NCBI RefSeq assembly: GCF_009617875.1
Contig: NZ_BLAV01000001.1
Span: 1,736,001-1,800,000, forward strand
Reading direction: 5' to 3'
Source: Prolixibacter sp. NT017
GTDB taxonomy: Bacteria; Bacteroidota; Bacteroidia; Bacteroidales; Prolixibacteraceae
Length of the DNA stretch: 64,000 nt
The notes below the pieces were generated by a model that did no database searches, was not told the DNA's origin, and saw only the letters and a program-made list of their open reading frames with translations. This document shows, in pieces, positions 3,842-28,000 of the stretch (positions within the stretch are counted from its first letter, which is position 1; the number at the start of each line of letters is the position of its first letter). Position numbers and translations under genes: made by a program.

Positions 3842-4258
3842 TCAGTCATGAAGGGAGGAAAGTAAATTCAGAAGAGTTTTCTCTAACTGTTTACTTTTTA
3901 ACTCACATTCCCAAATCGTAATCACTTTCCACCCGGCCACTTGCAAGGCCATTTCCGCCTCCTTGTCACGCTTCTGCGTGTCTTTGATTTTTTGCAACCA
4001 CCATTCGGTGCGGGTTTTGGGAAGGACAAAATAACGGCAGCCTTTGTGACCGTGCCAGAAGCAGCCGTTAATAAAAATGACTGTTTTGTATTTGGGTAAT
4101 ACAATGTCCGGTTTTCCCGGCAGGTTTTTCACATTCAGCCGGTACCGGAAACCATTGGCAAACAGGAAGCGCCGGACCAGCATTTCAGGTTTCGTGTCTT
4201 TCCCTTTAATGCGGCTCATGTTGTAGCTCCGGGTTGCTTTGTCGTGTACATCGGCCAT
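3842..4258 (-). CDS. vsr: Very short patch repair endonuclease Vsr
   Basis: The 138-residue protein is full length and shows the Vsr signature: MADVHDKATRSYNMSRIKGKDTKPE at the N-terminus (described here in part), PGKPDIVLPKYK with the catalytic Asp, FINGCFWHGHKGC with zinc and active-site residues, and TIWECELK near the end. Vsr nicks 5' of the T in T:G mismatches produced when 5-methylcytosine deaminates at Dcm sites. Its presence supports a CCWGG-type methyltransferase next door. It is on the same strand as the C-M-R operon but upstream of the C-box, so it is probably transcribed separately. Minisatellite DNA begins 76 bp upstream of its start. Confidence 0.95.
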   Translation of the reverse strand: MADVHDKATRSYNMSRIKGKDTKPEMLVRRFLFANGFRYRLNVKNLPGKPDIVLPKYKTVIFINGCFWHGHKGCRYFVLPKTRTEWWLQKIKDTQKRDKEAEMALQVAGWKVITIWECELKSKQLEKTLLNLLSSLHD

Positions 4259-7953: not shown

Positions 7954-8971
7954 GCTGTAGCTCGCGAATGTCCTCCTCTCCGGAGGAGGTGGCCGAAGGC
8001 CGGAGGAGGATTCTTCAATTAAAAATGAACGATGAGAAATGAACAATCGAAAGGCCACTCTTTATCGTCTACCGTCTGGTGTCTAATGTCTGACGTCTTC
8101 TTTCTAACAACAGAAACAACCGCAACCTAAGCGGAAACCGGCGTCTCGTTGGGGCGTATTTTGGGGGCTTTGCGAAAACTTCGCGCACTTTGCGTGGAGC
8201 CTTTTGTGAAACTCCTACGGAGTATGTTGGCACGTGAGGTGCTATCTGCTACAATACCGGATGCCCTACGGGCAATTCAGCTAGTGTTGTTCAGGCATGG
8301 ACAAACACTCAATCCAGACGAAAAAGCTGCTGAAAGAGCTGTAGCTCGCGAATATCCTCCTCTTCGGAGGAGGTGGCCGAAGGCCGGAGGAGGATTTTTG
8401 AATGAAAAATGAACGATGAGAAATGAACAATCGAAAGGCCACTCTTTATCGTCTACCGTCTGGTGTCTAATGTCTGACGTCTTCTTTCTAACAACAGAAA
8501 TAACCGCAACCTAAGCGGAAACCGGCGTCTCGTTAGGGCGTATTTTGGGGGCTTTGCGAAAATCTTTGCGGTCTTAGCGTGGAGCCTTTTGCGAAACTCC
8601 TACGGAGTATGTTGGCACGTGAGGTGCTATCTGCTACAATACCAAATGCCCTACGGGCAATTCAGCTAGTGTTGTTCAGGCATGGACAAACACTCAATCG
8701 AGACGAAAAAGCTGCTGAAAGAGCTGTAGCTCGCAAATGTCCTCCTCTTCGGAGGAGGTGGCCAAAGGCCGGAGGAGGATTTTTGAATGAAAAATGAACG
8801 ATGAGAAATGAACAATCGAAAGGCCACTCTTTATCGTCTACCGTCTGGTGTCTAATGTCTGACGTCTTCTTTCTAACAACAGAAATAACCGCAACCTAAG
8901 CGGAAACCGGCGTCTTGTTGGGGCGCATTTTGGTGGTTTTGCGAAAACTTCGCGCACTTTGCGTGGAGCCT
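7954..8971. repeat. Tandem array of a 384-385 bp unit, about 2.6 copies
   Basis: GCTGTAGCTCGC recurs at 7954, 8338 and 8723, and GGAGCC at 8196, 8581 and 8965, giving a period of 384-385 bp. Each unit contains CCTCCTC-(TTCG or TCCG)-GAGGAGG hairpins (7972-7989, 8356-8373, 8741-8758), a GGCC-GAA-GGCC stem, a 7-bp-phased tract (AATGAAC.., GTCTAAT.., AACAACA..) and, in two units, the ACTCC-TAC-GGAGT and TGCCC-TAC-GGGCA hairpins. Copies are nearly identical, so amplification is recent. Frames at 8149-8412 and 8579-8797 lie inside it and are rejected as genes. Confidence 0.92.
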
Positions 8972-8989
8972 TTTTTACCACTAATAACA

Positions 8990-9150
8990 CAAAGAAGTCC
9001 TCCATCGAAGCCGAACCATAGTAACCACAGAAACGACAATAACAATTAGTAATGAAAAATGAGTAATGAACAATCGAAAGATCGCTCTATATCGTCTCAT
9101 GTCTGGAGTCTGATGTCTTTTTTCGAACAACAGTAACCGCGCAGTACAAC
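8990..9150. repeat. Degenerate heptanucleotide-phased tract
   Basis: Sequence such as TTAGTAA-TGAAAAA-TGAGTAA-TGAACAA (from about 9042) followed by TCTCATG-TCTGGAG-TCTGATG reads as consecutive imperfect 7-mers in one register. It separates the 385-bp array from the end of the P-type ATPase gene and shows no coding potential. Confidence 0.75.
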
Positions 9151-11753: not shown

Positions 11754-11835
11754 GGTGTGTTGTTCCTTTATGACGTTGTTTTCTTCCACACCTAAATAAA
11801 CTGAAATTTTTTGGAAAGGTTTCAGCGCGGCGAAG

Positions 11836-12116
11836 TTTTAAGTGTTATGTGTTAAGTTTTAAGAATAATGGAGCGATGTTGTCCTTGTGAATCATTCGGT
11901 GGCAAAATAGTAAAAACAATGGCCAAATAAAAAGAGCGACACGATGATATATTCCGGTCACGATTTATTGTGACCCTACCATGGTACACCAGCGTTGCGA
12001 ATGGCAGCAACGTCATAGGGCCACGACATGTCGTGGCCGCTGCACGCCCCCCTTGTTTCGTTTGTAGTGGCCGCTGAATCCGACCAGCCTGTTTTATTTT
12101 CAAATAAAAAAAAGGG
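11836..12116. repeat. Intergenic region with paired 20-bp palindromes and a short 7-bp tract
   Basis: GTTTTAA-GTGTTAT-GTGTTAA-GTTTTAA (from about 11836) is a short heptamer tract. GGTCACGAT-TT-ATTGTGACC (11958-11977) and the perfect palindrome GGCCACGACATGTCGTGGCC (12019-12038) are two versions of one element, and a third copy lies at 28142-28161. No gene is visible. Confidence 0.75.
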
Positions 12117-12683
12117 TCAGTCATAACGTGGTTTGTAACTCAAAACAGTTTTGCCACCGGAATATAACCTGGATTGTATAGGAGTGAATCGCTGTATTTC
12201 TTTTAGCGAATTAAAAACAGTAACACCGCTGCTGATAGCTGTTGGATTGACAATAAAATGATACTCGTCAATTAGTCTCTCCTTTACCAGCGAGGAAACA
12301 AAACTGACACCACCAAAAACAAGTAGGTCTTTCCCGTTTTGCTGTTTTAACTCGGCAATTTCTTCTCTAAGATTTCCTTTGGTCAAAGTGGTATTGTTCC
12401 AGGTTGATTTGTCGAGTGTTGATGTGAAAACAACCTTGTGGATCGAAGCTATCTTTTTTGCAAATGGGTGGGTGGGATTTTCTGCTGCCGTATCCTCCCA
12501 ATATTTTAGAATCGTTTCTGCCGTTTTTCTGCCAAGTAAGAGCGTGTCGGAGGTCTCGAGGAGTGAACTCATAAACTCCATCAGTTCATTATCCGGATTT
12601 AGGGTCATCCAGTCTTTTTCTCCGTTTCGTCCTGCAACACAACCGTTGATTGTCATTTGCATTTGTAGTTTTAATTTCCTCAT
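12117..12683 (-). CDS. RibD-C/dihydrofolate reductase-like family protein
   Basis: The 188-residue protein has the RibD C-terminal/DHFR-like fold signature: MRKLKLQMQMTINGCVAG at the start, TLLLGRKTAETILKYW (nucleotide-binding region), KVVFTSTLDKSTWNNT, LLVFGGVSFVSSLV and a C-terminal YHFIVNPTAISSG. Such proteins are predicted NADPH-dependent reductases of unknown substrate and are not the housekeeping DHFR. It is the first of three paralogues between 12117 and 15329, mixed with VOC and DoxX proteins, which suggests a shared stress or detoxification role (inference). Confidence 0.85.
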   Translation of the reverse strand: MRKLKLQMQMTINGCVAGRNGEKDWMTLNPDNELMEFMSSLLETSDTLLLGRKTAETILKYWEDTAAENPTHPFAKKIASIHKVVFTSTLDKSTWNNTTLTKGNLREEIAELKQQNGKDLLVFGGVSFVSSLVKERLIDEYHFIVNPTAISSGVTVFNSLKEIQRFTPIQSRLYSGGKTVLSYKPRYD

Positions 12684-12827
12684 CGTTATCTTGATTTTAA
12701 AAATCTGTATCTGTTGTTCTTATTCTTCGTTAGCAATTGCGGAATTAAAGTGCTTATACGACCCCGGAGGTGGGGGCGCATGTTAATTTGATATCCGTTC
12801 TTCCTATAATCCGTAATCCTGGCAGGA

Positions 12828-13211
12828 TTATTTTGAGAAAGCAAAAACGGCTGTTTGCATCTTGTGGTAGCTGAAGTAGGAGAGTGCCAGTACGGCCAAC
12901 ACCACCAATGGGAACAGAGCTTGTCCGCCTATCCCGTCGACGACAGCGTGAGAAACGGCAGCGCTGATAAAATCGAAGGTAAAGCCTGCATACGCCCACT
13001 CCTTGATACGTTCCTTAAATGCCGGGAGAATGAGTACAATGGCTCCGGCGACTTTGAAGCAAACGAGCATGACACCGAAGTATTCGGGGTACCCTAAATG
13101 ACTAATTCCCTGTTTGGCCAAATCGGTCTGAAAAGTAAAGGCGGGCAGTACACCATCAAACAGAACGATCAAACTGGTGGTAATCCAGTAAATAATTTTT
13201 GTTGTTTTCAT
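12828..13211 (-). CDS. DoxX-like membrane protein
   Basis: The 127-residue protein has four predicted membrane helices (IIYWITTSLIVLFDGVLPAF; FGVMLVCFKVAGAIVLILP; WAYAGFTFDFISAAVSHAVV; LFPLVVLAVLALSYFSY), the length and hydrophobic pattern of small DoxX/DUF4870-type proteins. The region GYPEYFGVMLVCFKVAGA is characteristic of the DoxX-like family. Exact biochemical function is unknown. It lies in a row of small stress-type genes on the same strand but is separated by gaps of more than 100 bp, so it may have its own promoter. Confidence 0.8.
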   Translation of the reverse strand: MKTTKIIYWITTSLIVLFDGVLPAFTFQTDLAKQGISHLGYPEYFGVMLVCFKVAGAIVLILPAFKERIKEWAYAGFTFDFISAAVSHAVVDGIGGQALFPLVVLAVLALSYFSYHKMQTAVFAFSK

Positions 13212-13214
13212 CTT

Positions 13215-13618
13215 CTTTAATTTTTAATACTTAACACTTCTATTGAAACCTGAAATACTGTAACCTCGAAGCCGAACCTGAAACCCTTTAAAAAATTAAT
13301 GATGAATAATGAACAATGAAAGAGTCGAAAGTCGAAGGTCCAACGTCGAAGGTCTAATGTCTGGAGTCTAATGTCTTTTTTCCAACAACAGTAACGATAG
13401 GAACCATAGCAACCTCAAAGCGCAACTTGTAACCTGAAACCCTTTAAAAATTAATAATGAATAATGAACAATGAAAGAATCGAAAGTCGAAGGTCTAACG
13501 TCTAACGTCTCATGTCTCATTTCTGGAGTCTAGTGTCTTTTACTTAACACTTAACACTTAAAACTCTTTCAACCTGAAACCGCGAAGCTGAACCTGAAAC
13601 CTGAAACCTTTTCACATT
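13215..13618. repeat. Long heptanucleotide-phased intergenic tract (two related blocks)
   Basis: Nearly the whole 400-bp gap reads as degenerate 7-mers in one register, for instance ATTAATA-ATGAATA, GGTCTAA-CGTCTAA, CGTCTCA-TGTCTCA, TACTTAA-CACTTAA-CACTTAA and GAACCTG-AAACCTG-AAACCTT. Two blocks of about 155 bp beginning near 13275 and 13430 are alignable to each other. No start codon with a ribosome binding site or credible frame is present. Confidence 0.85.
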
Positions 13619-13624
13619 TTCTTC

Positions 13625-14095
13625 TTACGCCTGTTTCAGCCTTTCAATATCGAATTTCTTCATTTGCATAAATGCTTTCATCACACGGGGAGCGCGTTCG
13701 GCGTCGCTCATCAGTTCGCCCAGGATGGTTGGAACGATTTGCCACGAAACGCCGTATTTATCCTTCAGCCAGCCGCACTGCTCCGCTTCGGGTACAGCCG
13801 ACAGCTTTTCCCAGTAGTAGTCAATCTCTTCCTGGGTATCACAATTCACTATAAACGAAACGGCTTCGTTAATTTGGAAGACGGGACCGCCATTCAGCGC
13901 CATGAACTTTTGTCCGTTGATTTGAAAGTTGACGGTGAGAACTGTTCCCTCTTTTTGTCCGTGTATTTCCTGTCCTTCGCTTCCGTAATAGGAGATGTTT
14001 TCAATTTTTGAATTCCGGAAAACGGACGTATAAAAACGTGCCGCTTCTTCCGCCTGGTGGTCGAACCAGAGGCAGGGAGTAATCTGATCTTTCAT
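13625..14095 (-). CDS. PhnB-like VOC family protein
   Basis: The 156-residue protein begins MKDQITPCLWFDHQAEEAA, followed by FYTSVFRNSKIENISYYG, KFMALNGGPVF, EIDYYWEKLS and CGWLKDKYGVSWQIVP, the pattern of the 3-demethylubiquinone methyltransferase-like/PhnB branch of the vicinal-oxygen-chelate superfamily. Real enzymatic activity is unproven for this branch. It is the first of two VOC genes in the stress-type cluster and ends close to heptamer-repeat DNA. Confidence 0.88.
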   Translation of the reverse strand: MKDQITPCLWFDHQAEEAARFYTSVFRNSKIENISYYGSEGQEIHGQKEGTVLTVNFQINGQKFMALNGGPVFQINEAVSFIVNCDTQEEIDYYWEKLSAVPEAEQCGWLKDKYGVSWQIVPTILGELMSDAERAPRVMKAFMQMKKFDIERLKQA

Positions 14096-17514: not shown

Positions 17515-17578
17515 TAAAAAATGAGAAATGAACAATGGGAGTAAAGTTCATTTCTCATTTCTAACTTTTCAATGTTAT
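17515..17578. repeat. Short heptamer-phased tract
   Basis: AAAATGA-GAAATGA-ACAATGG and GTTCATT-TCTCATT-TCTAACT fill the gap between the AraC and fabF genes in 7-bp register. The two halves are roughly inverse complements (ATGAGAAATGAAC versus GTTCATTTCTCAT), so the tract could also fold into a hairpin serving both convergent genes. Confidence 0.7.
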
Positions 17579-19609: not shown

Positions 19610-20596
19610 ATGCTGATTATCGATTCGCCCTCAAATAACGCTTATTTCAATATCGCTTCCGAAGAGTATTTGCTGAATACATATCCGAACGACGAGATCT
19701 TCCTGCTCTACGTAAATGCGCCTTCCATTATTGTGGGACGGTTCCAGAATACGCTGGCAGAAATCAACCTCGACTATGTCACGGAAAACAAAATCAAGGT
19801 AGTTCGCCGGATGTCAGGCGGTGGTGCGGTGTATCACGACCTGGGTAATCTGAATTTCTCATTTCATACCCCCCTCGGTGACGACGATTTTTCCGATTTC
19901 TCTAAGTTCACCCAGCCGGTGGTCGATTTGCTGAACAACCTGGATGTGCCGGCTAAACTCGAAGGACGGAATGATTTGGTGGTCGACGGCAAGAAATTCA
20001 GCGGTAACGCCAAGTTGGCCCGAAAAGGGAAGATGATTCAGCACGGTACTATTTTGCTGGACTCCGAGATGAGGGTATTGAGTGAGGCGTTGAAAATTAA
20101 TCCGCTAAAATTCCGAGACAAAGCGGTGAAGTCGGCCCGTGCCCGCGTTACAAACCTAATCGACTATTTCCCGGGAGGTATCACCGTCGATAAGTTCAAG
20201 GAACTGCTCATCGGGCAAATCATCAAAGAGAACGAACAGAGTGCAACCATCCACCAATTAAGACCGGATGAAGTAGCGAAAATTGAACAACTGGCCGCGG
20301 AAAAGTACAGCACCTGGGACTGGAATTTTGGTGGTTCACCCAGCTACGATTTTAACAAAGCCATTAAGATACCCGCGGGTTTCATCGAACTACACATGGA
20401 TGTGAAGAAGGGTGTCATTCAGGACGTGAAGATTTTCGGCGATTTCTTTGCATCGCAACCCATCGAAGAGCTCGAAGAAAAGCTCGTCGGTGTGCCGCAC
20501 GAAACCGAAAACCTCCGGCAAATCCTTTCAACGGTGAACCTGACCGATTACTTCGGGAAGGTTACCGGGGAGGAGATTCTGGAGTTGTTTGTGTAG
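19610..20596 (+). CDS. lplA: Lipoate-protein ligase A
   Basis: From the ATG at 19610 the protein has 328 residues: MLIIDSPSNNAYFNIASEEY, then VGRFQNTLAEINLDYV, VVRRMSGGGAVYHDLGNLNF (lipoate/ATP-binding loop), GRNDLVVDGKKFSGNAK with the catalytic Lys region, and a C-terminal accessory domain. It attaches free lipoate to the E2 subunits of 2-oxoacid dehydrogenases and to GcvH. An upstream in-frame start at 19442 is rejected because it would read through the tetR start and operator. It is divergent from tetR but its own promoter lies about 75 bp from the operator. Confidence 0.92.
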   Translation: MLIIDSPSNNAYFNIASEEYLLNTYPNDEIFLLYVNAPSIIVGRFQNTLAEINLDYVTENKIKVVRRMSGGGAVYHDLGNLNFSFHTPLGDDDFSDFSKFTQPVVDLLNNLDVPAKLEGRNDLVVDGKKFSGNAKLARKGKMIQHGTILLDSEMRVLSEALKINPLKFRDKAVKSARARVTNLIDYFPGGITVDKFKELLIGQIIKENEQSATIHQLRPDEVAKIEQLAAEKYSTWDWNFGGSPSYDFNKAIKIPAGFIELHMDVKKGVIQDVKIFGDFFASQPIEELEEKLVGVPHETENLRQILSTVNLTDYFGKVTGEEILELFV

Positions 20597-20663
20597 TGGT
20601 GACCGGTTTACCGTGAACGTGTCATTGGAATTTTGTAGCGCCTGTATGGCTATGGGAACGACC

Positions 20664-21848
20664 TTAATAATTGAAATCACGCGGCTCACCACACATTTCC
20701 CGGGCATCCAATATGGCTTCCCGCCATTTATCCTGTATCATTTTGAATGTCCCGATAATATCATGCCTGTCGTCTGATTCGTACGAGAGGCCCAGTTCTT
20801 TGTATGTAACATATTGTTCATAAACCGGATCGAGTGCTTCAGCCACTTTTAGATTCTCATACTGAAATGCGGCCTTGTGAATCGCTTTGTACCATACGAG
20901 TTGACTATCGAGGTATACAGGGCGGTCGGCATTCTGTAACGTACTGATGGGACCATCCAGTTCCATATTACCCGACTCGCTATCTATTTTCCGCAAGTGA
21001 ATTTCCATTCCGTCAAATAGTTTCAGAATATATGGGTCGGTCTCTGTTTCGCGGGCAAATTCAATGTAGGAATTGCTGAAGCCTGATAACATTGGGCGTT
21101 TTTCTGGCGGTTTAGGCTTAGCTTTTTTTGCTGGGGTTGATTCCTTTTGCTTTTCCCTTGCCAGTTCCAGGTACATTTCCTCTTTCGGCCCTTTCTTGTC
21201 GGGCAACAAAAGCAACAGGTTCGTTCCCATACGACTGTCGTAATACTCATACCATTCGGGCATGTACGCATAGCCACCGGTTTCATCTTTTTCCATCACA
21301 CGGCCGTAATCCGACATGTGCAGATCCCACGGGTCTCCCATATACCAATCGTCGAGCGACAAGAGAAAGCTTTTCATTAATACGATTTCTTCCGGGGTAA
21401 TCATTGGGATAAAGGGGCAGGCCATAATGTTTTGATGCCAGTACAGGAAGTCGAACGATATCTTAACCTCTTCAATTTTAATTTGTCCGGCCCGCCATTG
21501 CAGTTCCAGGTTGAACAGTTTCTTTTTCAGAATACTCCGCAGCGCTTCCAGTGCATAATTCTGGTACCGGAGTTCCAGGCTCTCGCGCTCGCTCAGCAGA
21601 CCAATGTAGTAGTTATACGATTTTACGAGAGATACCTTCCAATTAACATATCTCTTGATAAAACCCTCTTTGTTGTGGTCGGAATACTTCTCCAGGTAGC
21701 TTTTTACCTTTTCCGATTCTTTTAACTCGTTGATGAATTGGGTTGTCAGCTTTTTGAAGAACTGTTCATATTCCACTTTGTCCTCGGGAATCATTTCTTT
21801 CCGGTACGGAAAATGATCGAAGTTGGCGAAGTGTCCTTTCTTTTTCAT
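20664..21848 (-). CDS. Hypothetical protein
   Basis: I do not recognise this family. Started at the ATG at 21848 (MKKKGHFANFDHFPYRKE) it has 394 residues and no signal peptide or membrane helix. It is rich in aromatic and charged residues and has a Lys/Pro-rich linker (TPAKKAKPKPPEKRP) at about residue 245 that separates two parts, suggesting two domains. A longer start at 21914 would add 22 residues without a ribosome binding site. It is downstream of, and on the same strand as, another unknown gene at 21975, but a terminator separates them. Confidence 0.65.
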   Translation of the reverse strand: MKKKGHFANFDHFPYRKEMIPEDKVEYEQFFKKLTTQFINELKESEKVKSYLEKYSDHNKEGFIKRYVNWKVSLVKSYNYYIGLLSERESLELRYQNYALEALRSILKKKLFNLELQWRAGQIKIEEVKISFDFLYWHQNIMACPFIPMITPEEIVLMKSFLLSLDDWYMGDPWDLHMSDYGRVMEKDETGGYAYMPEWYEYYDSRMGTNLLLLLPDKKGPKEEMYLELAREKQKESTPAKKAKPKPPEKRPMLSGFSNSYIEFARETETDPYILKLFDGMEIHLRKIDSESGNMELDGPISTLQNADRPVYLDSQLVWYKAIHKAAFQYENLKVAEALDPVYEQYVTYKELGLSYESDDRHDIIGTFKMIQDKWREAILDAREMCGEPRDFNY

Positions 21849-21932
21849 TGGCGATAATTCTTCGTTAAACGTTGGTCTGACCAGGAAAATAAAATCAGGA
21901 TACGCATTTCCCACATCCCTAAAAACAGCAAG

Positions 21933-21955
21933 AAAGCCCCGGTTTCGGGGCTTTT
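21933..21955 (-). terminator. Rho-independent terminator
   Basis: AAGCCCCG-GTTT-CGGGGCTT type hairpin with a 7-8 bp GC-rich stem, flanked by runs of A and T. It follows the stop at 21975 on the minus strand and would terminate that gene before the hypothetical gene at 21848. Confidence 0.8.
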
Positions 21956-21974
21956 GTGAATCACTATCGGGAGT

Positions 21975-22685
21975 TTACGATTCGGTTGCGGCACCATCTA
22001 CGGTCTCTTCACCTTCTTCCACGGGCTCGTCCTCTTCAATGGAGTCTTTCGAGCCGTAAATTACATAATCGTTATAATAGGCCTCGTTTACACCTTCCCA
22101 TATATCTTTGCCGGCCTCGCATATTTCCGAAATGGTTTGGTAAATATCGTTAGCGGCCTTTTCGCGTTCCACCGTTTTGGCCTCGCGGGTCGATATCATT
22201 GTTTGCTGTTCATCGATAGCATCGTCGAGGACTGTTACCGCCGATTCGATTTCCGTCAGCGTCTCTCCGGTAATGTTGCGCGAAGCCAGTTTGTCGAGCA
22301 TCTCCCGGCAGGTGGTACAGATGTGGTTAGCCAGGTTGATCAAGTCGGCTGCTTTAACATCCTTCAGCTTATTAAACCGGATGGCTTTGTACTCGACCGA
22401 TTGTTCTCCCAAGGCATATTTGCAGCGAAAACGTAAGGTCGATAGCAGCTCTTTCACCTGGGCGTAGGCCGTGTTTTTCGCATCGGTTTTCAGGGTTTGC
22501 TGTCCCAGCCAGTAGTTATCCGACGGCATTTGCCTGAAGGCCGTTACCTTGGTTTTGAAATTGGTCCGGAAAGTTTCATCGTATCCCAGAGGGGAGAGTT
22601 GTTCCGCATCGCGTTCTAACAAATTATCGATACGGTCGGCACGCTGAGTTAGCGTACCCATGCTAAAATTAAAGCTAGTTTTCAT
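21975..22685 (-). CDS. Hypothetical helical protein
   Basis: The 236-residue protein has no family I can name. It is predicted helical throughout, with a heptad-like stretch (TEIESAVTVLDDAIDEQQTM; TREAKTVEREKAANDIYQTI) and a very acidic C-terminus (EEDEPVEEGEETVDG). CTTCREM near residue 127 gives two Cys. There is no signal peptide. The ATG at 22685 follows an AT-rich region. Neighbours give no functional clue apart from another unknown gene beyond the terminator. Confidence 0.65.
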   Translation of the reverse strand: MKTSFNFSMGTLTQRADRIDNLLERDAEQLSPLGYDETFRTNFKTKVTAFRQMPSDNYWLGQQTLKTDAKNTAYAQVKELLSTLRFRCKYALGEQSVEYKAIRFNKLKDVKAADLINLANHICTTCREMLDKLASRNITGETLTEIESAVTVLDDAIDEQQTMISTREAKTVEREKAANDIYQTISEICEAGKDIWEGVNEAYYNDYVIYGSKDSIEEDEPVEEGEETVDGAATES

Positions 22686-22832
22686 GTTAATTAATTTTTA
22701 TTGGTTGTCTTAGTTGCTAACCAAATAGCTTTTTGAAATTACAACGATTTACCGCTATATGCAACCCAATCGCACCACTTTTTTATATGTTTTTTAATAT
22801 AAAAGTTAATATTTTCAAAGTTTTAATAATCA

Positions 22833-22964
22833 TTGCAGTGCTTTTCTGTTACTATTTTTGCGAAAATGAATACAATAAATATTACGGGTATGCGTGTACT
22901 TTCCTCCTTTTCTTTATCGCACTTTTCCCTGTTCAGTTATCCCCATGTTAGCAGCCATTTGTCT
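22833..22964 (+). other. Promoter and start of a reading frame cut by the IS3 element
   Basis: TTG (22833-22835), 17 bp, then TATTTTTG (22853-22860) gives a good Bacteroidota promoter, followed by an ATG at 22866. The frame (MNTINITGMRVLSSFSLSHF..) runs straight into the left end of the IS element at 22965, where it soon stops. No matching continuation is visible beyond 24557. It may be a gene broken by the insertion or a coincidental frame. Confidence 0.4.
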
Positions 22965-22999
22965 TGTCCTGAAATAGCTTGACGTAAAAAGTCAGGAAA

Positions 23000-23407
23000 A
23001 TGAAGAAAGGAAAAGAGGCCATGTTAAGCGATCACATGGAAGGATTTCAGGAAAAACCGATTAATTACAATGCTTACGAAGTTAGTTTCAGGCGCTGGTT
23101 GGTCGGCCAGATAGATGCAGAAAAGATGAGTTTTCAGCAGGCACGCGACCGGTTTGATTTAGGTTCCCAGTACCGGCGCATTATCAGGAACTGGCAGGAA
23201 CGTTATTCCGATGATATTCACTTATCTTTACAGGCGATGAGTGGAAAAGAAAGAACAGATGTAAAAGCGCTGGAGAAGCGTATCAAAGAGCTGGAAAAAC
23301 AGCTTGAACTGGCGAAGATGAAAAATGTGGGCCTGAATACGATGATTGACATTGCTGAGCAGGACTACAAATTAGAGATTCGAAAAAAGTCTGGCCCCAA
23401 ACAGTAG
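23000..23407 (+). CDS. IS3-family transposase OrfA
   Basis: The 135-residue protein has an N-terminal helix-turn-helix region (VSFRRWLVGQIDAEKMSFQQ.. with YRRIIRNWQERY) and a C-terminal coiled coil with leucine heptads (KALEKRIKELEKQLELAKMK), the standard IS3 OrfA architecture. AGGAAA immediately precedes the ATG. It binds the element's ends, and on its own tends to limit transposition. An A-rich slippery site near its 3' end would give the OrfAB fusion transposase. Confidence 0.9.
   Translation: MKKGKEAMLSDHMEGFQEKPINYNAYEVSFRRWLVGQIDAEKMSFQQARDRFDLGSQYRRIIRNWQERYSDDIHLSLQAMSGKERTDVKALEKRIKELEKQLELAKMKNVGLNTMIDIAEQDYKLEIRKKSGPKQ
23383..23389 (+). other. Programmed -1 frameshift site of the IS
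   Basis: A-AAA-AAG in the OrfA frame is the classical X-XXY-YYZ slippery heptamer. The OrfB frame is open through this point (reading AAA-AAA-GTC-TGG..), so a -1 shift would join OrfA to OrfB. Confidence 0.8.
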
Positions 23408-23421
23408 AAGTACTGGCACAC

Positions 23422-24315
23422 ATGTACCCGTTGGTATCCAAATCGGTACTGTGTGAACTGTTTGGGTTTAGCCGTCAGGCCTGGTACGATAGCAAAAAGC
23501 GTCACTCAGTAAAACAAATGCAGGAGGTGTTCATTTTGAAGCAGGTAAAAATACTTCGCCGCGAACATCCCCGCATGGGAGCAGAGAAACTCCTTTTATT
23601 ACTGACTTCCACACTACAGGAACACAACATCAAATACGGAAGAGACAAGTTTTTCAACCTGCTCGGGGAGCACGGTTTGTTGGTGCGGCGCCGTAAGCGG
23701 GGCCCGAAAACCACTAATTCGAACCATTTTTACCGTAAATATCCCAATCTAATCCGGGATATCGAACTGGTCAGTTCAGGCAGACTCTGGGTCAGTGATA
23801 TTACTTACCTGCGAACCGAAAAAGGCTTTGTCTACCTGTCCCTGGTAACCGATGCCTATTCGAAGAAAATTGTCGGATGGAGCCTCTGGCCCGACCTGAC
23901 CAGTGAAGGGGCCTTAAATGCCCTAAGAATGGCCGTTGCCGGCGAAGGTGTAAAGCCGAACCTGATTCATCACTCCGACAGGGGGATTCAGTATTGCTGC
24001 AATGATTACGTGAACTACCTGAAAGGAGCTAAAATCAACATATCTATGACTGAAAACGGAGACCCTTATGAAAATGCGGTAGCCGAACGTGTTAATGGTA
24101 TTCTGAAGGGAGAGTACAGCTTACAGGACACTTTTGCCGATTATCACGCAGCCCTGGAAGCGGTAAAACTCGCTGTATACAAATACAATCATAAACGGCC
24201 GCATCGTAGTGTGGACATGATGTTCCCCACTGATGCACATAAGCAAACCGGAACATTAAAGAAACACTGGAAAAAGCGGTCCTATCCGTTGAAGCGTGAA
24301 TCAGGTGATACATAA
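23422..24315 (+). CDS. IS3-family transposase OrfB (DDE integrase)
   Basis: The 297-residue part from the first ATG includes an HTH_21-like region (HPRMGAEKLLLLL; GLLVRRRKRGPKTT) and the rve integrase core with the DDE triad: D in WVSDITYLRT, D in LIHHSDRGIQY and E in NAVAERVNGILKGEY. The frame is complete, so the enzyme may be active. Translation probably begins in OrfA and reaches this frame by -1 slippage; independent initiation at 23422 is also possible. Confidence 0.93.
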   Translation: MYPLVSKSVLCELFGFSRQAWYDSKKRHSVKQMQEVFILKQVKILRREHPRMGAEKLLLLLTSTLQEHNIKYGRDKFFNLLGEHGLLVRRRKRGPKTTNSNHFYRKYPNLIRDIELVSSGRLWVSDITYLRTEKGFVYLSLVTDAYSKKIVGWSLWPDLTSEGALNALRMAVAGEGVKPNLIHHSDRGIQYCCNDYVNYLKGAKINISMTENGDPYENAVAERVNGILKGEYSLQDTFADYHAALEAVKLAVYKYNHKRPHRSVDMMFPTDAHKQTGTLKKHWKKRSYPLKRESGDT

Positions 24316-24573
24316 AAATCTGTCGAACGAACCCGGTGTAAGAGAAAACCTGTGATGAGAGAACAGGAATAACAGAGAGAGTTTCCGGCTACTTCAGGGT
24401 TTAGAAACAATCTGAACTCTGTTTTCAGGTTTTACTCTTACAAACGACGGACCGGGCAGGAAGATAAAAAGAAGTATATTTGGAATCCAGTTGTTACGAA
24501 ATAACAAGCAACCGGACTCACCAATTAAGTATAAATCTGTCAAGCTATTTTAGGGGAGGTCAATTTTCCGGTG

Positions 24574-24888
24574 GAGGAAAACACTGCTAACAGCGAGGAA
24601 GACACTGCTAACAGCGAGGAAGACACTGCTAACAGCGAGGAAGACACTGCTAACGGCTGGGAAAACATCGAAAGAGTGGAGGAAGACACCGAAAGAGGCG
24701 AGGAAACCATCGAAAAACAGGAGAACAATACGAAAAGAGGCGGGAAACACATTGAAAAAGAGGAGAACAACACCGAAAGAAGTGCGACAAACACAACCAG
24801 AAAGGTGACCAAGATCGCGGAAGCCGCGGATAACTCTACCAACAATGAGAACGTTTCAGCCAACACGGCGAAAAGAGTTACCAGAGAA
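24574..24888. repeat. 21-bp minisatellite, 15 units
   Basis: The anchor GAGGAA or a variant recurs every 21 bp at 24574, 24595, 24616, 24637, 24658, 24679, 24700, 24721, 24742, 24763, 24784, 24805, 24826, 24847 and 24868 with no indel. The first four units (GAGGAAGACACTGCTAACAGC) are nearly identical; later ones are strongly diverged. A frame of 123 codons is open on the plus strand (heptads such as EEDTANS), with no ribosome binding site, so coding is doubtful. Confidence 0.9.
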
Positions 24889-25163
24889 GAGGAAGGGGAT
24901 GGGAGTGGGAAATGGTGTACCGCATTCTGGCTATTACCCTGATTTCATTGTGCAGTTAGCGTAGGAGTCGAAGTTAGTAGACGTTTGAAGAAAATAACGA
25001 TATTTGTTTATAGGGCGAAAGGGCTTAGCATTAACTCGCGGCATAGTCATTGAAATGAAATTATAAACGGGAATATTTGCTCTGTAGGAGCAGAATCCAA
25101 TAACAACAATGAAATGGATGGATATTAAAAAACGGTTTGCAGGTTGGGATTTAGGATATTGGT

Positions 25164-25441
25164 GAATTGCTTACGCCCCTTCAGGGCTTGGGCTGTCTCC
25201 ACATTTCCCGGCAACCGGGCGTTGCCCGGCCCTGGTGCTGTTGCACCGTTGGTGCAAAAAGAAGGTGACCGGAATCGATGACAGGCCAACGGCCTGAGAA
25301 CAATATCCGGTGGAAAGCCACAGGAACGGAGCAAGGCCGAAGGTCTTGCAGCAATAGCCCATAGCATCGCTATGGGGATATGAACCAAATAAAAAACCTT
25401 GCCCTGAAAGGGCAACAGCCAAATAACCAAACAAACGCCAC
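25164..25441. repeat. REP-like multi-hairpin element, copy 1
   Basis: Begins GAATTGCTTACGCCCCTTCA and contains CCCGGCAACCGGGCGTTGCC-type palindromes, TTGCACCGTTGGTGCAA, AGGCCAACGGCCT and CCATAGCATCGCTATGG. It ends at the start of a decayed RAYT-type transposase. Copies 2 and 3 lie at 25895 and 26195, and a fragment at about 6908-6956. Confidence 0.85.
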
Positions 25442-25442
25442 C

Positions 25443-25894
25443 ATGCCACAATCATTATCGAAGGTGTATTACACATCGCCTTTAGCACTAAAAACCGGGA
25501 GAAAACGATCGGTGAAAATATTCAATCCGCCCTTTTCGAATACCTTGGAGGAATTTGCAAAGGTTTGGATTGCAATCCTGTTAGGGTAGGAGGAACCGAT
25601 GATCATATTCATATCCTGTGTACGTTATCGCGAAAGATAACCCAGGCCAACCTGATTGAGCAATTGAAAAAAGAATCCTCGAAATGGATAAAGACAAAAG
25701 GAGGACACTATCGTCATTTTTAATGGCAACATGGCTACGGAGTTTTCTCTGTCAATCCCACCGAAATAGAGAAGGTTGTAGAGTACATCAACAACCAAAA
25801 GGAACATCACAAAATGAAAACCTTTCAGGAGGAGCTGCGGGCCTTCCTCAAAAAATATGGTGTTGATTACGACGAACGATATATGTGGGATTGA
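25443..25894 (+). pseudogene. Decayed RAYT/IS200-like Y1 transposase
   Basis: Reading through two lesions recovers a complete Bacteroidota-type REP-associated tyrosine transposase: MPQSLSKVY, [frameshift, one base missing in GTGTATTACACATC near 25468], LHIAFSTKNREK, LGGICKGLDCNPVRVGG, the HUH metal motif DHIHIL, and YGVFSVNPTEIEKVVEYI with the candidate catalytic Tyr, ending DERYMWD. A TAA interrupts HF-[stop]-WQHGYG at about 25722, where relatives have Tyr. With both a frameshift and a nonsense codon it cannot make a normal protein. REP-like elements flank it on both sides. Confidence 0.88.
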
Positions 25895-26071
25895 ATTGCT
25901 TACGCCCCTTCAGGGCTTAGGCCATACGCGCATTCCCGGCAACAGGGCGTTGCCCTGCCCTAATGCTTTTGCACCGTTGGCGCAAAAAAGAAGGTACCCG
26001 GAATCCGTGAAAGGCCAACGGCCTGAGAGCAAAAGCCCATAGCGCCGCTATGGGAACAAAAATGTGGTAAG
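25895..26071. repeat. REP-like multi-hairpin element, copy 2
   Basis: Starts within 3 bp of the RAYT pseudogene stop and repeats the TTACGCCCCTTCAGGGCTTA start, the GGCAACAGGGCGTTGCCCTG palindrome, the TTTGCACCGTTGGCGCAAAA stem, AGGCCAACGGCCT and CCCATAGCGCCGCTATGGG. Same orientation as copy 1. Confidence 0.85.
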
Positions 26072-26194
26072 GTGAATACGGTCGCGCACCAGCCTGGATT
26101 GAAATGGGAAGATTGTTTCGACCGTAATAACGCCGTCGCTCATTAGAAATAAATGTTAGAAGGATGATTGGCTAATAACCGGGTTGTTATTCGG

Positions 26195-26290
26195 GTTACC
26201 GCCCTTTCAGGGCTTGGGCCATCTGCGCATTACCCGGCAACAGGGCGTTGCCCTGCCCTGGTGCTTTTGCACCGTTGGCGCAAAGGCAAA
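26195..26290. repeat. REP-like multi-hairpin element, copy 3 (shorter)
   Basis: Contains GCCCTTTCAGGGC, GGCAACAGGGCGTTGCC and TTTGCACCGTTGGCGCAAA in the same order as the other copies but lacks the last two stems; heptamer-phased DNA follows directly. Confidence 0.8.
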
Positions 26291-26452
26291 GAAACAACAG
26301 GAACAGTAGCAACCACAGTAACCTTCAGGCGCAACTTGAAACAATTAATAATGAATAATGTGTAGTGAGTAATTAAGAGGTCTAAGGTTCACTCTCATGT
26401 CTCGCATCTACCGTCTTGCGTCTTTCTTAATACTTAACACTTGAAACTGCCT
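26283..26452. repeat. Heptamer-phased tract downstream of mnmE
   Basis: Reads in 7-bp register as AATAATG-AATAATG, TCACTCT-CATGTCT-CGCATCT-ACCGTCT-TGCGTCT, then TACTTAA-CACTTGA. It fills the gap between REP copy 3 and the mnmE stop. Confidence 0.78.
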
Positions 26453-27853
26453 TTATTTACCGATACAAAAATTCCGGAAAATATTCCCCAGCACCTCGTC
26501 CGTGCTAATCTCACCGGTGATGAGGCCCAAGTAATGCATGCATTCACGGATATCCTGCGAGAGGAAGTCGCCGGTAATACCATTTTCGATGCCATCCAAT
26601 ACGCGCTGAATGGATTCGCGGGCCTGGGTGAGCGCTTCATAGTGACGCGCATTGGTGACAATCACATCTTCTTCATTGTTGAGTTTCGCCAGATTGACTG
26701 TTTCGAGCAGCAGACTCTTCAGACTATCGATGTTATGGCCCATCTTGGCGGAGATGAAGACCATATCTTCATTATCGGCCAGGGTAATGTCCATTAGCAT
26801 CTTTCGGACAACGCCCTCATCTACCTGGTCAGCTTTGTTACCGACGATAATCAGGTTCTGTTGACTGATATGCTGGCGCACATCTTCCAGGTTTTGCAGG
26901 TATTTTTCCGGCTCGCGGGTCAGGTCAAGCAGTAGTAATACAATGCTAGCCTGTTTGATCTTCTGGTACGTCCGCTCGATACCCATACTCTCGATTTTAT
27001 CGGCGGTGGTCCGGATGCCGGCCGTATCGATGAACCGGAAACTGACACCGCGGATGTTGATGATATCCTCGATGACGTCGCGGGTGGTTCCTTCAATCTC
27101 GGATACGATGGCGCGTTCGTCATTCAACAGGGCATTCAGCAGGGTCGATTTCCCCACGTTGGTCTCGCCGGCGATGGTGACCGGAATGCCGTTCTTGATG
27201 ACATTTCCCAGCTTGAATGAGTCGGCCAGCTTGCCAATCATTTCCTCGATGCGGGTAGCCAGTTCGAGCAATTGGGTACGGTCGGCAAATTCCACATCTT
27301 CCTCGCTAAAATCAAGCTCCAGCTCGATGAGGGAGACAAAGCTGAGCAATTCACCACGCAGTTTGATGAGTTCCTGTGAGAAGCCTCCGCGCATTTGGTT
27401 CAATGCCAGTTTATGCGAAGCGGCAGACGTGGAAGCAATCAGGTCGGCCACGGCTTCGGCCTGGGAGAGGTCCATTTTGCCATTCAAGAAAGCCCGTTGG
27501 GTAAACTCCCCCGGACCGGCCATGCGTGCTCCTTTCGAGAGCAACAGTTCGAGAATAGCTTGCTGTATGTATTGCGAGCCGTGACACGAGATTTCTACCA
27601 CATCTTCTCCTGTAAAGGAATGAGGAGCGCGGAACAAACTCACCACCACCTCGTCGATAATCTTCTCGCCGGTGCGGATGGTGCCGAAATGAAGGGTGTT
27701 GGCTGGTTGGTCGGCCAGTTTTTTCTCTTGATTAGGGGATATAAAAACTTCCTCGGTAATGGCGACGGCCTTTTGTCCTGAAAGGCGGATTACCGCGATG
27801 CCACCCACGCCCGGTGGGGTGGAAATGGCGCATATGGTTGATTGATCGATCAT
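26453..27853 (-). CDS. mnmE: tRNA uridine-5-carboxymethylaminomethyl modification GTPase MnmE
   Basis: The 466-residue protein has the formyl-THF-binding N-terminal domain (STICAISTPPGVGGIAVIRL), a helical middle, an embedded G domain with GETNVGKS (229-236), DTAGIR and NKAD motifs, and the C-terminal FCIGK with the conserved Cys463. With MnmG it makes the cmnm5 modification at wobble U34 of tRNAs. Length and motifs are full. Start ATG at 27853 fits the family N-terminus. It is isolated, bordered by repeat-rich DNA on both sides. Confidence 0.97.
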   Translation of the reverse strand: MIDQSTICAISTPPGVGGIAVIRLSGQKAVAITEEVFISPNQEKKLADQPANTLHFGTIRTGEKIIDEVVVSLFRAPHSFTGEDVVEISCHGSQYIQQAILELLLSKGARMAGPGEFTQRAFLNGKMDLSQAEAVADLIASTSAASHKLALNQMRGGFSQELIKLRGELLSFVSLIELELDFSEEDVEFADRTQLLELATRIEEMIGKLADSFKLGNVIKNGIPVTIAGETNVGKSTLLNALLNDERAIVSEIEGTTRDVIEDIINIRGVSFRFIDTAGIRTTADKIESMGIERTYQKIKQASIVLLLLDLTREPEKYLQNLEDVRQHISQQNLIIVGNKADQVDEGVVRKMLMDITLADNEDMVFISAKMGHNIDSLKSLLLETVNLAKLNNEEDVIVTNARHYEALTQARESIQRVLDGIENGITGDFLSQDIRECMHYLGLITGEISTDEVLGNIFRNFCIGK

Positions 27854-27894: not shown

Positions 27895-28000
27895 TGAAGA
27901 CATGAGACGAAAGACGCTTACATGTTACGCTGCGCGGTTACTGTTGTTCCTATGGTTACTCTTGTTCCTGTTGTTCGGCTTCGATGTATGCGTCGTCTTT
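27895..28000. repeat. Heptamer-phased tract, inverted orientation
   Basis: On the minus strand it reads ACCATAG-GAACAAC-AGTAACC and TCTTTCG-TCTCATG-TCTTCAG in 7-bp register, the same words as at 9100-9140 and 13390 but reversed. The following bases (28010-28085) contain an imperfect inverted repeat of CTTTGTGG/CCACAAGG. Confidence 0.7.

Follow-up and report, generated by a model that had tools for sequence, protein, structure and literature searches.

The window, that is, the whole stretch of 64,000 nucleotides analysed here, is part of the genome of Prolixibacter sp. NT017 (contig NZ_BLAV01000001.1, positions 1,736,001 to 1,800,000). Its interval 13215-13618 lies between two minus-strand genes, one of them DoxX-like, whose start faces the interval, the other with a 3-dmu-9_3-mt domain, whose stop does. 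This interval and several others of the window contain arrays of degenerate 7-bp words (heptads), which are listed with their neighbouring features in Table 1.

Table 1. Heptad arrays and associated features of the window (window coordinates)
Position	Strand	Feature	Remarks
8063-8098	+	GTCT heptads	copy 1 of the 384/385-bp unit
8447-8482	+	GTCT heptads	copy 2 of the 384/385-bp unit
8832-8867	+	GTCT heptads	copy 3 of the 384/385-bp unit
9040-9139	+	copy of the dispersed composite core	used as search query
11833-11863	-	AAGTGTT/AAGTTTT heptads	minus-strand form of the ACTTAAC family
13215-13618	.	two successive composite copies (AACCTGA, ATGAA, GTC and ACTTAA words)	interval of the finding
13295-13565	+	top-scoring lag-7 segment of the window (score 54; length 271 bp)	several word families; from the segment scan
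13542-13565	+	ACTTAAC heptads	3.4 copies
13571-13609	+	AACCTGA heptads	5.7 copies
17515-17578	.	short lag-7 interval (0.53)	past the fabF stop
26340-26448	+	heptad array	ends 4 bp from the mnmE stop
26453-27853	-	mnmE	anchor gene for the 80 named relatives
27898-27915	-	three GTCT heptads	
27937-27976	-	period-9 words GTTCCTGTT	rest of the interval claimed as reversed heptads

Periodicity of the window

Lag-7 identity was defined as the fraction of bases equal to the base 7 ahead and was compared with the mean over lags 1-30. In 13215-13618 it is 0.55 (mean 0.289), with most other lags at 0.20-0.33, and in the nested interval 13470-13618 it is 0.61 (mean 0.274); the signal of these intervals is echoed at lags 14, 21 and 28. 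Excesses were also identified at 8021-8143 (0.47; mean 0.278), 8403-8525 (0.48; mean 0.275), 8784-8911 (0.48; mean 0.278), 17515-17578 (0.53; mean 0.312) and 26283-26452 (0.47; mean 0.286). The 7-bp periodicity that had been claimed from the letters alone was thus recovered by autocorrelation, and seven of the ten intervals proposed for it (two of them nested) are clear. Of the remainder, 11836-11870 is strong (0.71; mean 0.355) over 35 bases only, 8990-9150 is weak (0.34 at lag 7 against 0.43 at lag 14), and 27895-28000 has no lag-7 excess (0.30), its peaks being lag 9 (0.41) and lag 18 (0.42). The last of these had been taken for an array of reversed heptads; three minus-strand GTCT heptads are indeed present, confined to its first bases (27898-27915), and the rest has a period of 9.

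The whole window was scanned at lags 2-49 for maximal segments with a score of at least 14, with one shuffle per lag. Three such segments have lag 7, five have lag 14, and lags 21 and 42 have three each. Lags 6, 9, 18, 20, 22, 28 and 44 gave one segment each and the remaining lags none, and no segment was obtained from the shuffle of the window at any lag. The sequence-only reading held that the register is kept when one word family gives way to another, and this is partly so. The spacing of ATGAA to GTC words is a multiple of 7 in nine of 17 distinct junctions (28, 35 and 42 bp); in five it exceeds a multiple of 7 by one base (8, 15 and 29 bp), and in three it leaves some other remainder. For GTCT to ACTTA words, four of seven spacings are multiples of 7.

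Longer periods of the window had been regarded as multiples of 7. For the "385-bp" unit this does not hold, as the array spacings are 384 and 385 bp and 384 is not divisible by 7. The unit occupies 7954-8974 in approximately 2.7 tandem copies, which contain three composite copies (see below) and TCCGGAGGA-type palindromes. The minisatellite at 24574-24780 does have a period of 21, with periods 20 and 22 beside it, and falls within an open frame that encodes repeats of seven residues (24571-24942, EEDTANS repeats); its period may be coding, driven by codons. The 21/42-bp minisatellites adjoin a gene for a Vsr mismatch endonuclease (3842-4258). Transposase-like remains with an internal stop, resembling the IS200/RAYT type, were seen at 25500-25895 and 26200-26283, next to GGGCGTTGCCCTGCCC-type palindromes (by eye).

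A composite repeat dispersed in the genus

BLAST of 13290-13620 against this genome (G000) gave at least 45 matches, in few clusters and in both orientations. The blocks of these matches have a common order, namely AACCTGA words, ATGAA words, often AATCGAAAG with a short linker, GTCT words and, as the last block, either ACTTAA words or period-9 AACAACAG words. The period-9 words AACAACAGN and GTTCCTGTT, at 13380-13440 and 27937-27976, adjoin heptad blocks and belong to this composite. Its 100-bp core (9040-9139) has at least 18 matches in this genome, at least eight in G002 and at least two in G001, both of the same genus, and none among the matches listed in the fourth genome of the genus, G003. 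Across the family, the core is present in three of the 60 genomes searched (this one included), all of one genus, with none among the matches listed in the other 56. The loci that had been listed as independent local products are, for the most part, copies of a single genus-only composite.

Many dispersed copies sharing a core are a trait of REP/MITE-like elements; terminal repeats were not seen in 14 aligned composite copies. Five copies, in three genomes, carry a 33-bp insert at an identical heptad boundary; in a sixth copy the insert has a variant form. The insert, which contains a CCCGACCGTGCGTCGGG hairpin, is located at approximately 1599.1 kb of G000, at 105.4 and 105.6 kb of contig C13 and 8.9 kb of contig C12 of G002, and at 0.2 kb of contig C13 of G001; the variant is in contig C5 of G001. 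RNA folding of the composite gave z -0.1 for the forward and z -4.5 for the reverse strand, the sole predicted helix of the latter being inside the insert. Carriage by plasmids or phages was rejected, as 13290-13620 had no match in the plasmid and phage collections.

Signals in the words themselves were also sought. Folding of three window strands gave nothing unusual (z +1.5, -1.5 and +2.0), and Rfam gave no match at the gathering threshold. A supply of stop codons in every frame (7 not being a multiple of 3) was rejected, the stop content of 50 words being that expected from shuffling. Purine/pyrimidine order is weak (z -2.5 in the named set described below, -1.4 in G000 and -0.7 in G001-G003), and keto/amino order departs from expectation in G001-G003 only (z -3.3, against 0.2 and -1.3 in the other sets). 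In 77 arrays the variable columns cluster slightly (mean invariant run 1.99 against 1.81, sd 0.06), which could mean a constrained core; a fixed core with a variable spacer, as in a binding site, was set aside because the effect is slight.

Distribution of arrays in the genome

A sample of 860 kb of the 5,141,405-bp genome (one contig), mostly chosen as holding or lying near BLAST hits, contained 40 lag-7 segments with a score of at least 13, one of them a poly-A run. Counts at further lags of this sample are 11 (lag 8), 19 (lag 9), two (lag 10), 24 (lag 14) and 28 (lag 21); within lags 4-13, lag 7 alone has more segments than lag 9. In five blindly chosen 20-kb stretches no lag-7 segment reached that score. 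With genes called by a simple coding model and arrays counted in the 860 kb from a score of 12, two of 47 arrays have more than half of their length inside a called gene. The share of intergenic intervals with an array is 0% at 60-150 bp (n=118), 0.9% at 150-300 bp (n=107), 12.9% at 300-600 bp (n=70) and 23.5% above 600 bp (n=85). Mean intergenic identity (175 kb) is 0.2762 at lag 7, 0.2782 at lag 6 and 0.2729 at lag 8, the means of lags 7 and 6 both being above those of shuffles. The lag-7 finding is therefore real but local, as arrays are found mostly in a few long intergenic regions and the intergenic lag-7 mean is not above that of lag 6; "much of the intergenic sequence", as it had been put, is an overstatement for a minority of long regions.

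Words of the arrays nearest a gene 5' end run along that gene in 15 cases and against it in four, and those nearest a 3' end run with the gene in 12 and against it in 14; nothing is built on these counts, since many of the arrays are related copies. In this genome, arrays touch stop codons at mnmE (4 bp), at 1715743 (-1 bp) and at 2613552 (-1 bp).

Length steps and turnover between copies and species

Twelve distinct composite copies, which share ancestry and whose lengths are not independent events, were measured between two conserved non-heptad anchors: seven without the insert are 26, 33, 33, 33, 39, 40 and 40 bp long, the 39-bp copy having a T-run before the right anchor that is one T shorter; four with the insert are 34, 34, 40 and 40 bp long after subtraction of its 33 bp; and one rearranged copy of 112 bp does not fit 7-bp steps. 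At mnmE, the orthologous array of the sister species G001 is longer by exactly 21 bp and otherwise approximately 95% identical (about five mismatches in the rest of the ~110-bp array). The whole interval on this side of mnmE differs by 103 bp between the two species, because DNA beside the array, on the side away from mnmE, is missing as well. No BLAST match to the mnmE array was obtained at the corresponding places of G002 and G003. The claimed steps of 7 nt are thus borne out inside the arrays, both in the dispersed copies (26/33/40 bp, one of 39) and at mnmE (21 bp).

The lengths of whole regions do not vary by whole units. Orthologous flanks were available for 34 of 51 merged arrays, which allowed 48 comparisons of region length. 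Three were unchanged, and seven of the other 45 differences (6 of 42 distinct intervals) are multiples of 7, with approximately six expected; the enrichment for multiples of 7 that the sequence-only reading had looked for in length differences is, for whole regions between species, no greater than chance. The blastn alignments with G001 and G002 total approximately 118 kb and contain 22 gaps of at least 5 bp, 10 of them with a length divisible by 7 (about three expected), and among nine of the ten that were looked at, four (approximately three events) lie within arrays and five outside.

Whole blocks come and go between species. Expansions confined to individual arrays of sister species include an ATCTGCT row in G002 (contig C6) and AAAAGTC and CAGGTTA rows in G003. 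Two arrays of the window stand where gene order breaks in a sister species: in the collinear contig of G002, the place corresponding to 11857-13625 lacks a match to it, and so does the place corresponding to 20591-26452. A 322-bp length difference between G000 and G002 has both ends inside matching AAGTTTTAAGTGTTA arrays. The breaks and the 322-bp difference are consistent with recombination between arrays, which would be our reading of these alignments. At 1824999-1825180 of G000, a 182-bp array region is identical in G002, in collinear DNA of approximately 93% identity; its left flank is 99% identical as well, which suggests a recent transfer.

Heptad arrays in other genomes

The best 80 of 588 relatives, named Bacteroidota loci around mnmE (1.33 Mb), gave 33 lag-7 segments in 18 loci at a score of at least 14, and 4, 10, 16, 12, 17 and 7 segments at lags 5, 6, 8, 9, 10 and 11, respectively. 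After masking of open frames of at least 100 codons (118 kb left, score at least 13), lag 7 had 21 segments (12 loci), lag 8 had 17 (10 loci), lag 10 had 12 (10 loci) and lag 14 had 20 (15 loci), whereas each lag had 0-2 in shuffles of the masked sets. Lag 7 leads, and periods of 8 and 10 occur too. A process acting in 7-nt steps, as had been put forward, is in keeping with the steps inside arrays, but does not cover the periods of 8, 9 and 10 that are also present. A non-Bacteroidota control (six loci, 300 kb, 8.4 kb after masking) had a single segment at each of lags 7 and 14; in a Trichormus plasmid (4.8 kb after masking) there was one at lag 7. These small controls thus have one lag-7 segment per ~8 kb and per ~5 kb, respectively, against 21 in 118 kb for the named loci, and restriction of heptad arrays to Bacteroidota may not hold; no phylum specificity is claimed, because the control density is not below that of the named loci.

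The consensus words differ between most of the named loci (50 locus-words in 80 loci). The pattern GTCTNNNGTCTNNNGTCT was found in 23 of 61 genomes, this one included, and AACYTGNAACYTGNAACYTG in 31 of 296 genomes of the phylum (this one included) and 17 of 140 genera, with a maximum of 167 overlapping matches in one genome; the reversed-pattern control of both searches is not clean, as a word read in reverse may be a heptad in its own right and is frequent in certain genomes (63 and 50 in G004, 31 and 50 in G137). In genome G006 all 26 GTCT-array matches are on the plus strand of their contigs, with eight contigs among the matches listed. The best case for a single register is genome G018, with lag-7 segments of 325 and 573 bp whose words change successively in phase (by eye). 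These lie at 581-905 and 1454-2026 of locus L166, score 126 and 142 and contain many word families. An association with GxxExxY genes was rejected, as none of 10 such loci (each ~3.3 kb or less) had a lag-7 segment with a score of at least 12; CACAAAG/CTTTGTG words were seen near the GxxExxY genes in seven of the 10 fetched loci (L275, L277-L282).

Relation to known heptad repeats

The STRR of cyanobacteria are heptanucleotide tandem repeats of intergenic DNA. The arrays described here are likewise intergenic tandem heptads, in another phylum and with other words. It had been stated that no equivalent is described in Bacteroidota, and this has to be corrected: MacGregor 2015 (PMC4679880) reports TAACTGA direct repeats from Beggiatoaceae, Cyanobacteria and some Bacteroidetes. 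Gramella and Aequorivita (A. sublithincola) are listed there with TAACTGA heptamers as well as "other heptamer direct repeats", and Elizabethkingia with "larger assemblages of heptamer repeats". The same paper describes intergenic tandem heptads in long arrays that are missing in close relatives, as here, and suggests a role in gene rearrangement (PMC4679880). The TAACTGA repeats are a single exact word, located in the main genome treated there mostly just upstream of start codons, whereas here the words are numerous and degenerate and a composite unit has been dispersed; neither the 33 consensus words of this genome's sample nor the listed arrays include TAACTGA.

The GGGAATC/(GGGANTN)n heptads of Xanthomonas and the GGGGA(C/T)T heptads of Nostoc are, according to Rehm et al. 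2015 (PMC4692102), heterogeneous, intergenic and in part inverted, with length and sequence varying among close species, all of which resembles the arrays here. They are G-rich and quadruplex-forming, whereas the present words have no such G-run. Heptanucleotides of Calothrix are mentioned in the same text (PMC4692102), and SSRs were surveyed by phylum in Huang and Mrazek 2014 (PMC4060949). As cited in PMC4679880 and PMC4692102, Mrazek et al. 2007 described long SSRs (LSSRs) with 7-nt units and hypothesised slippage related to polymerase contact. The favoured long unit of 7 and slippage as the cause are shared with the account given below. As in unit-7 LSSRs, 7-bp tandem units occur here beyond chance; near-perfect identity between units is absent, lag-7 identity being 0.34-0.61 in the signal-bearing window intervals longer than 100 bp, and Tandem Repeats Finder (score 40, this window) caught the 271-bp segment merely as short pieces. 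LSSRs are reportedly defined on near-perfect repeats, whereas the arrays here are degenerate and the word changes along the array. Arrays of this general kind are already accounted for by the published heptanucleotide repeats and ideas on slippage. What looks new is the degenerate form with its several words and the dispersal as a composite: for these, and for hairpins at gene 3' ends, no prior description was found among the open-licence papers searched.

Origin of the arrays

That AT-rich low-complexity DNA of a given base composition is simply being read as words has a negligible probability: intergenic self-match is raised at many short lags (including 3, 6 and 9), but lags 7, 14 and 21 stand out, shuffles of the masked sets give 0-2 segments at any lag against 21 and 22 at lag 7, and the shuffled window gives 0 against three. 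A dispersed, non-autonomous REP/MITE-like element carrying an old heptad array would be a more substantial alternative, the periodicity then being copied with the element and no 7-nt process being active. The shared block order, the core found in three of the genus' four genomes, the insert recurring at one heptad boundary and the lack of plasmid or phage matches all agree with it. Heptad number nevertheless still varies, both between copies and at an orthologous site, and terminal repeats were not seen in the 14 aligned copies. Furthermore, arrays of other genera have quite different words and the composite core was not found in the 56 other genomes of the family, so the composite is not needed for heptads to arise. 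We regard this explanation as quite unlikely.

It is unlikely, too, that the arrays are functional 3'-end elements, in which inverted AACYTGA repeats near stops would act as mRNA hairpins or terminators and the single-strand arrays of the present genus would be relatives or decayed forms of such hairpins. The idea comes from one Bacteroidota genus (g53, presumably Flavobacterium; GC 0.33-0.38), sampled in 15 fetched loci of eight genomes. There, an inverted match with a score of at least 15 contains or adjoins 16 of 32 lag-7 arrays (shuffles 0), a share inflated by the choice of loci for one word and, in several cases, for a visible inverted pair; about 10 of the 14 matches listed of these 16 have heptad arms. 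RNA folds of three of the hairpins gave z -11.5, -10.4 and -7.5. With gene ends set by a simple longest-frame rule, 19 of 19 AACYTGA arrays border a gene 3' end, usually no more than 50 bp away. Divergent genes flank 27 of the 169 intergenic regions, and not one of the arrays is in such a region, where about 3 of 19 would be expected; some arrays of the Prolixibacter genome abut stop codons as well. Against this, hairpin scoring gave 0 of 28 for the arrays of G000 that are not in the window, and those of the window fold in no unusual way. In the named set, 6 of 32 arrays scored as inverted repeats, three of them from one locus. The intrinsic-terminator combination of a stem-loop and a following T-run was found neither in the G000 arrays outside the window nor in g53, there being no T-run after the g53 stems in the sequences inspected by eye. 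The sense strand of eight hairpins, one counted twice through an overlapping locus, has 13 G.U against seven A.C wobble pairs, which is no clear bias, and arrays past stop codons are equally expected where unconstrained DNA alone tolerates arrays.

For the observed lag-7 periodicity, whole-heptad length differences, dispersal and block turnover, we favour, with a probability of about 0.6, degenerate heptad arrays produced by 7-nt slippage and point mutation, some of them dispersed as the composite of the genus. A heptad would be gained or lost through strand slippage, 7 nt at a time, a step that may reflect the contact length of the polymerase; copies in an array would then drift by point mutation, so that one word grades into another. 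Arrays would build up in DNA free of constraint, presumably without a function in this genome, and in this genus several arrays now form part of the composite of ordered word blocks, which is dispersed in both orientations. Slippage as the generator is supported by the whole-heptad steps between copies and at mnmE. Several points speak against the account: the lengths of whole regions do not follow 7-bp steps, some orthologous arrays are more alike than free drift predicts (the identical 182 bp), the variable columns cluster slightly, and the composite copies, being related, do not give independent lengths.

A wider form of this slippage account, in which a 7-nt-step process throughout Bacteroidota writes degenerate arrays with drifting vocabularies of each lineage, later giving composites or 3'-end hairpins, is tentative and in our view doubtful. 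The in-register change of words over 573 bp in one G018 array is an example of what it would produce; its odds are lowered because the small non-Bacteroidota control has a similar lag-7 density.

Implications

Degenerate arrays of this kind can be missed by tandem-repeat finders set for near-perfect units. The hairpin form of genus g53 provides a concrete, testable candidate for a 3'-end element. If 7-nt slippage is general in Bacteroidota, intergenic DNA of the phylum would be the product of one particular mutational process, from which differences between strains, mis-assembly and the shuffling of genes through repeats could be read in these bacteria.
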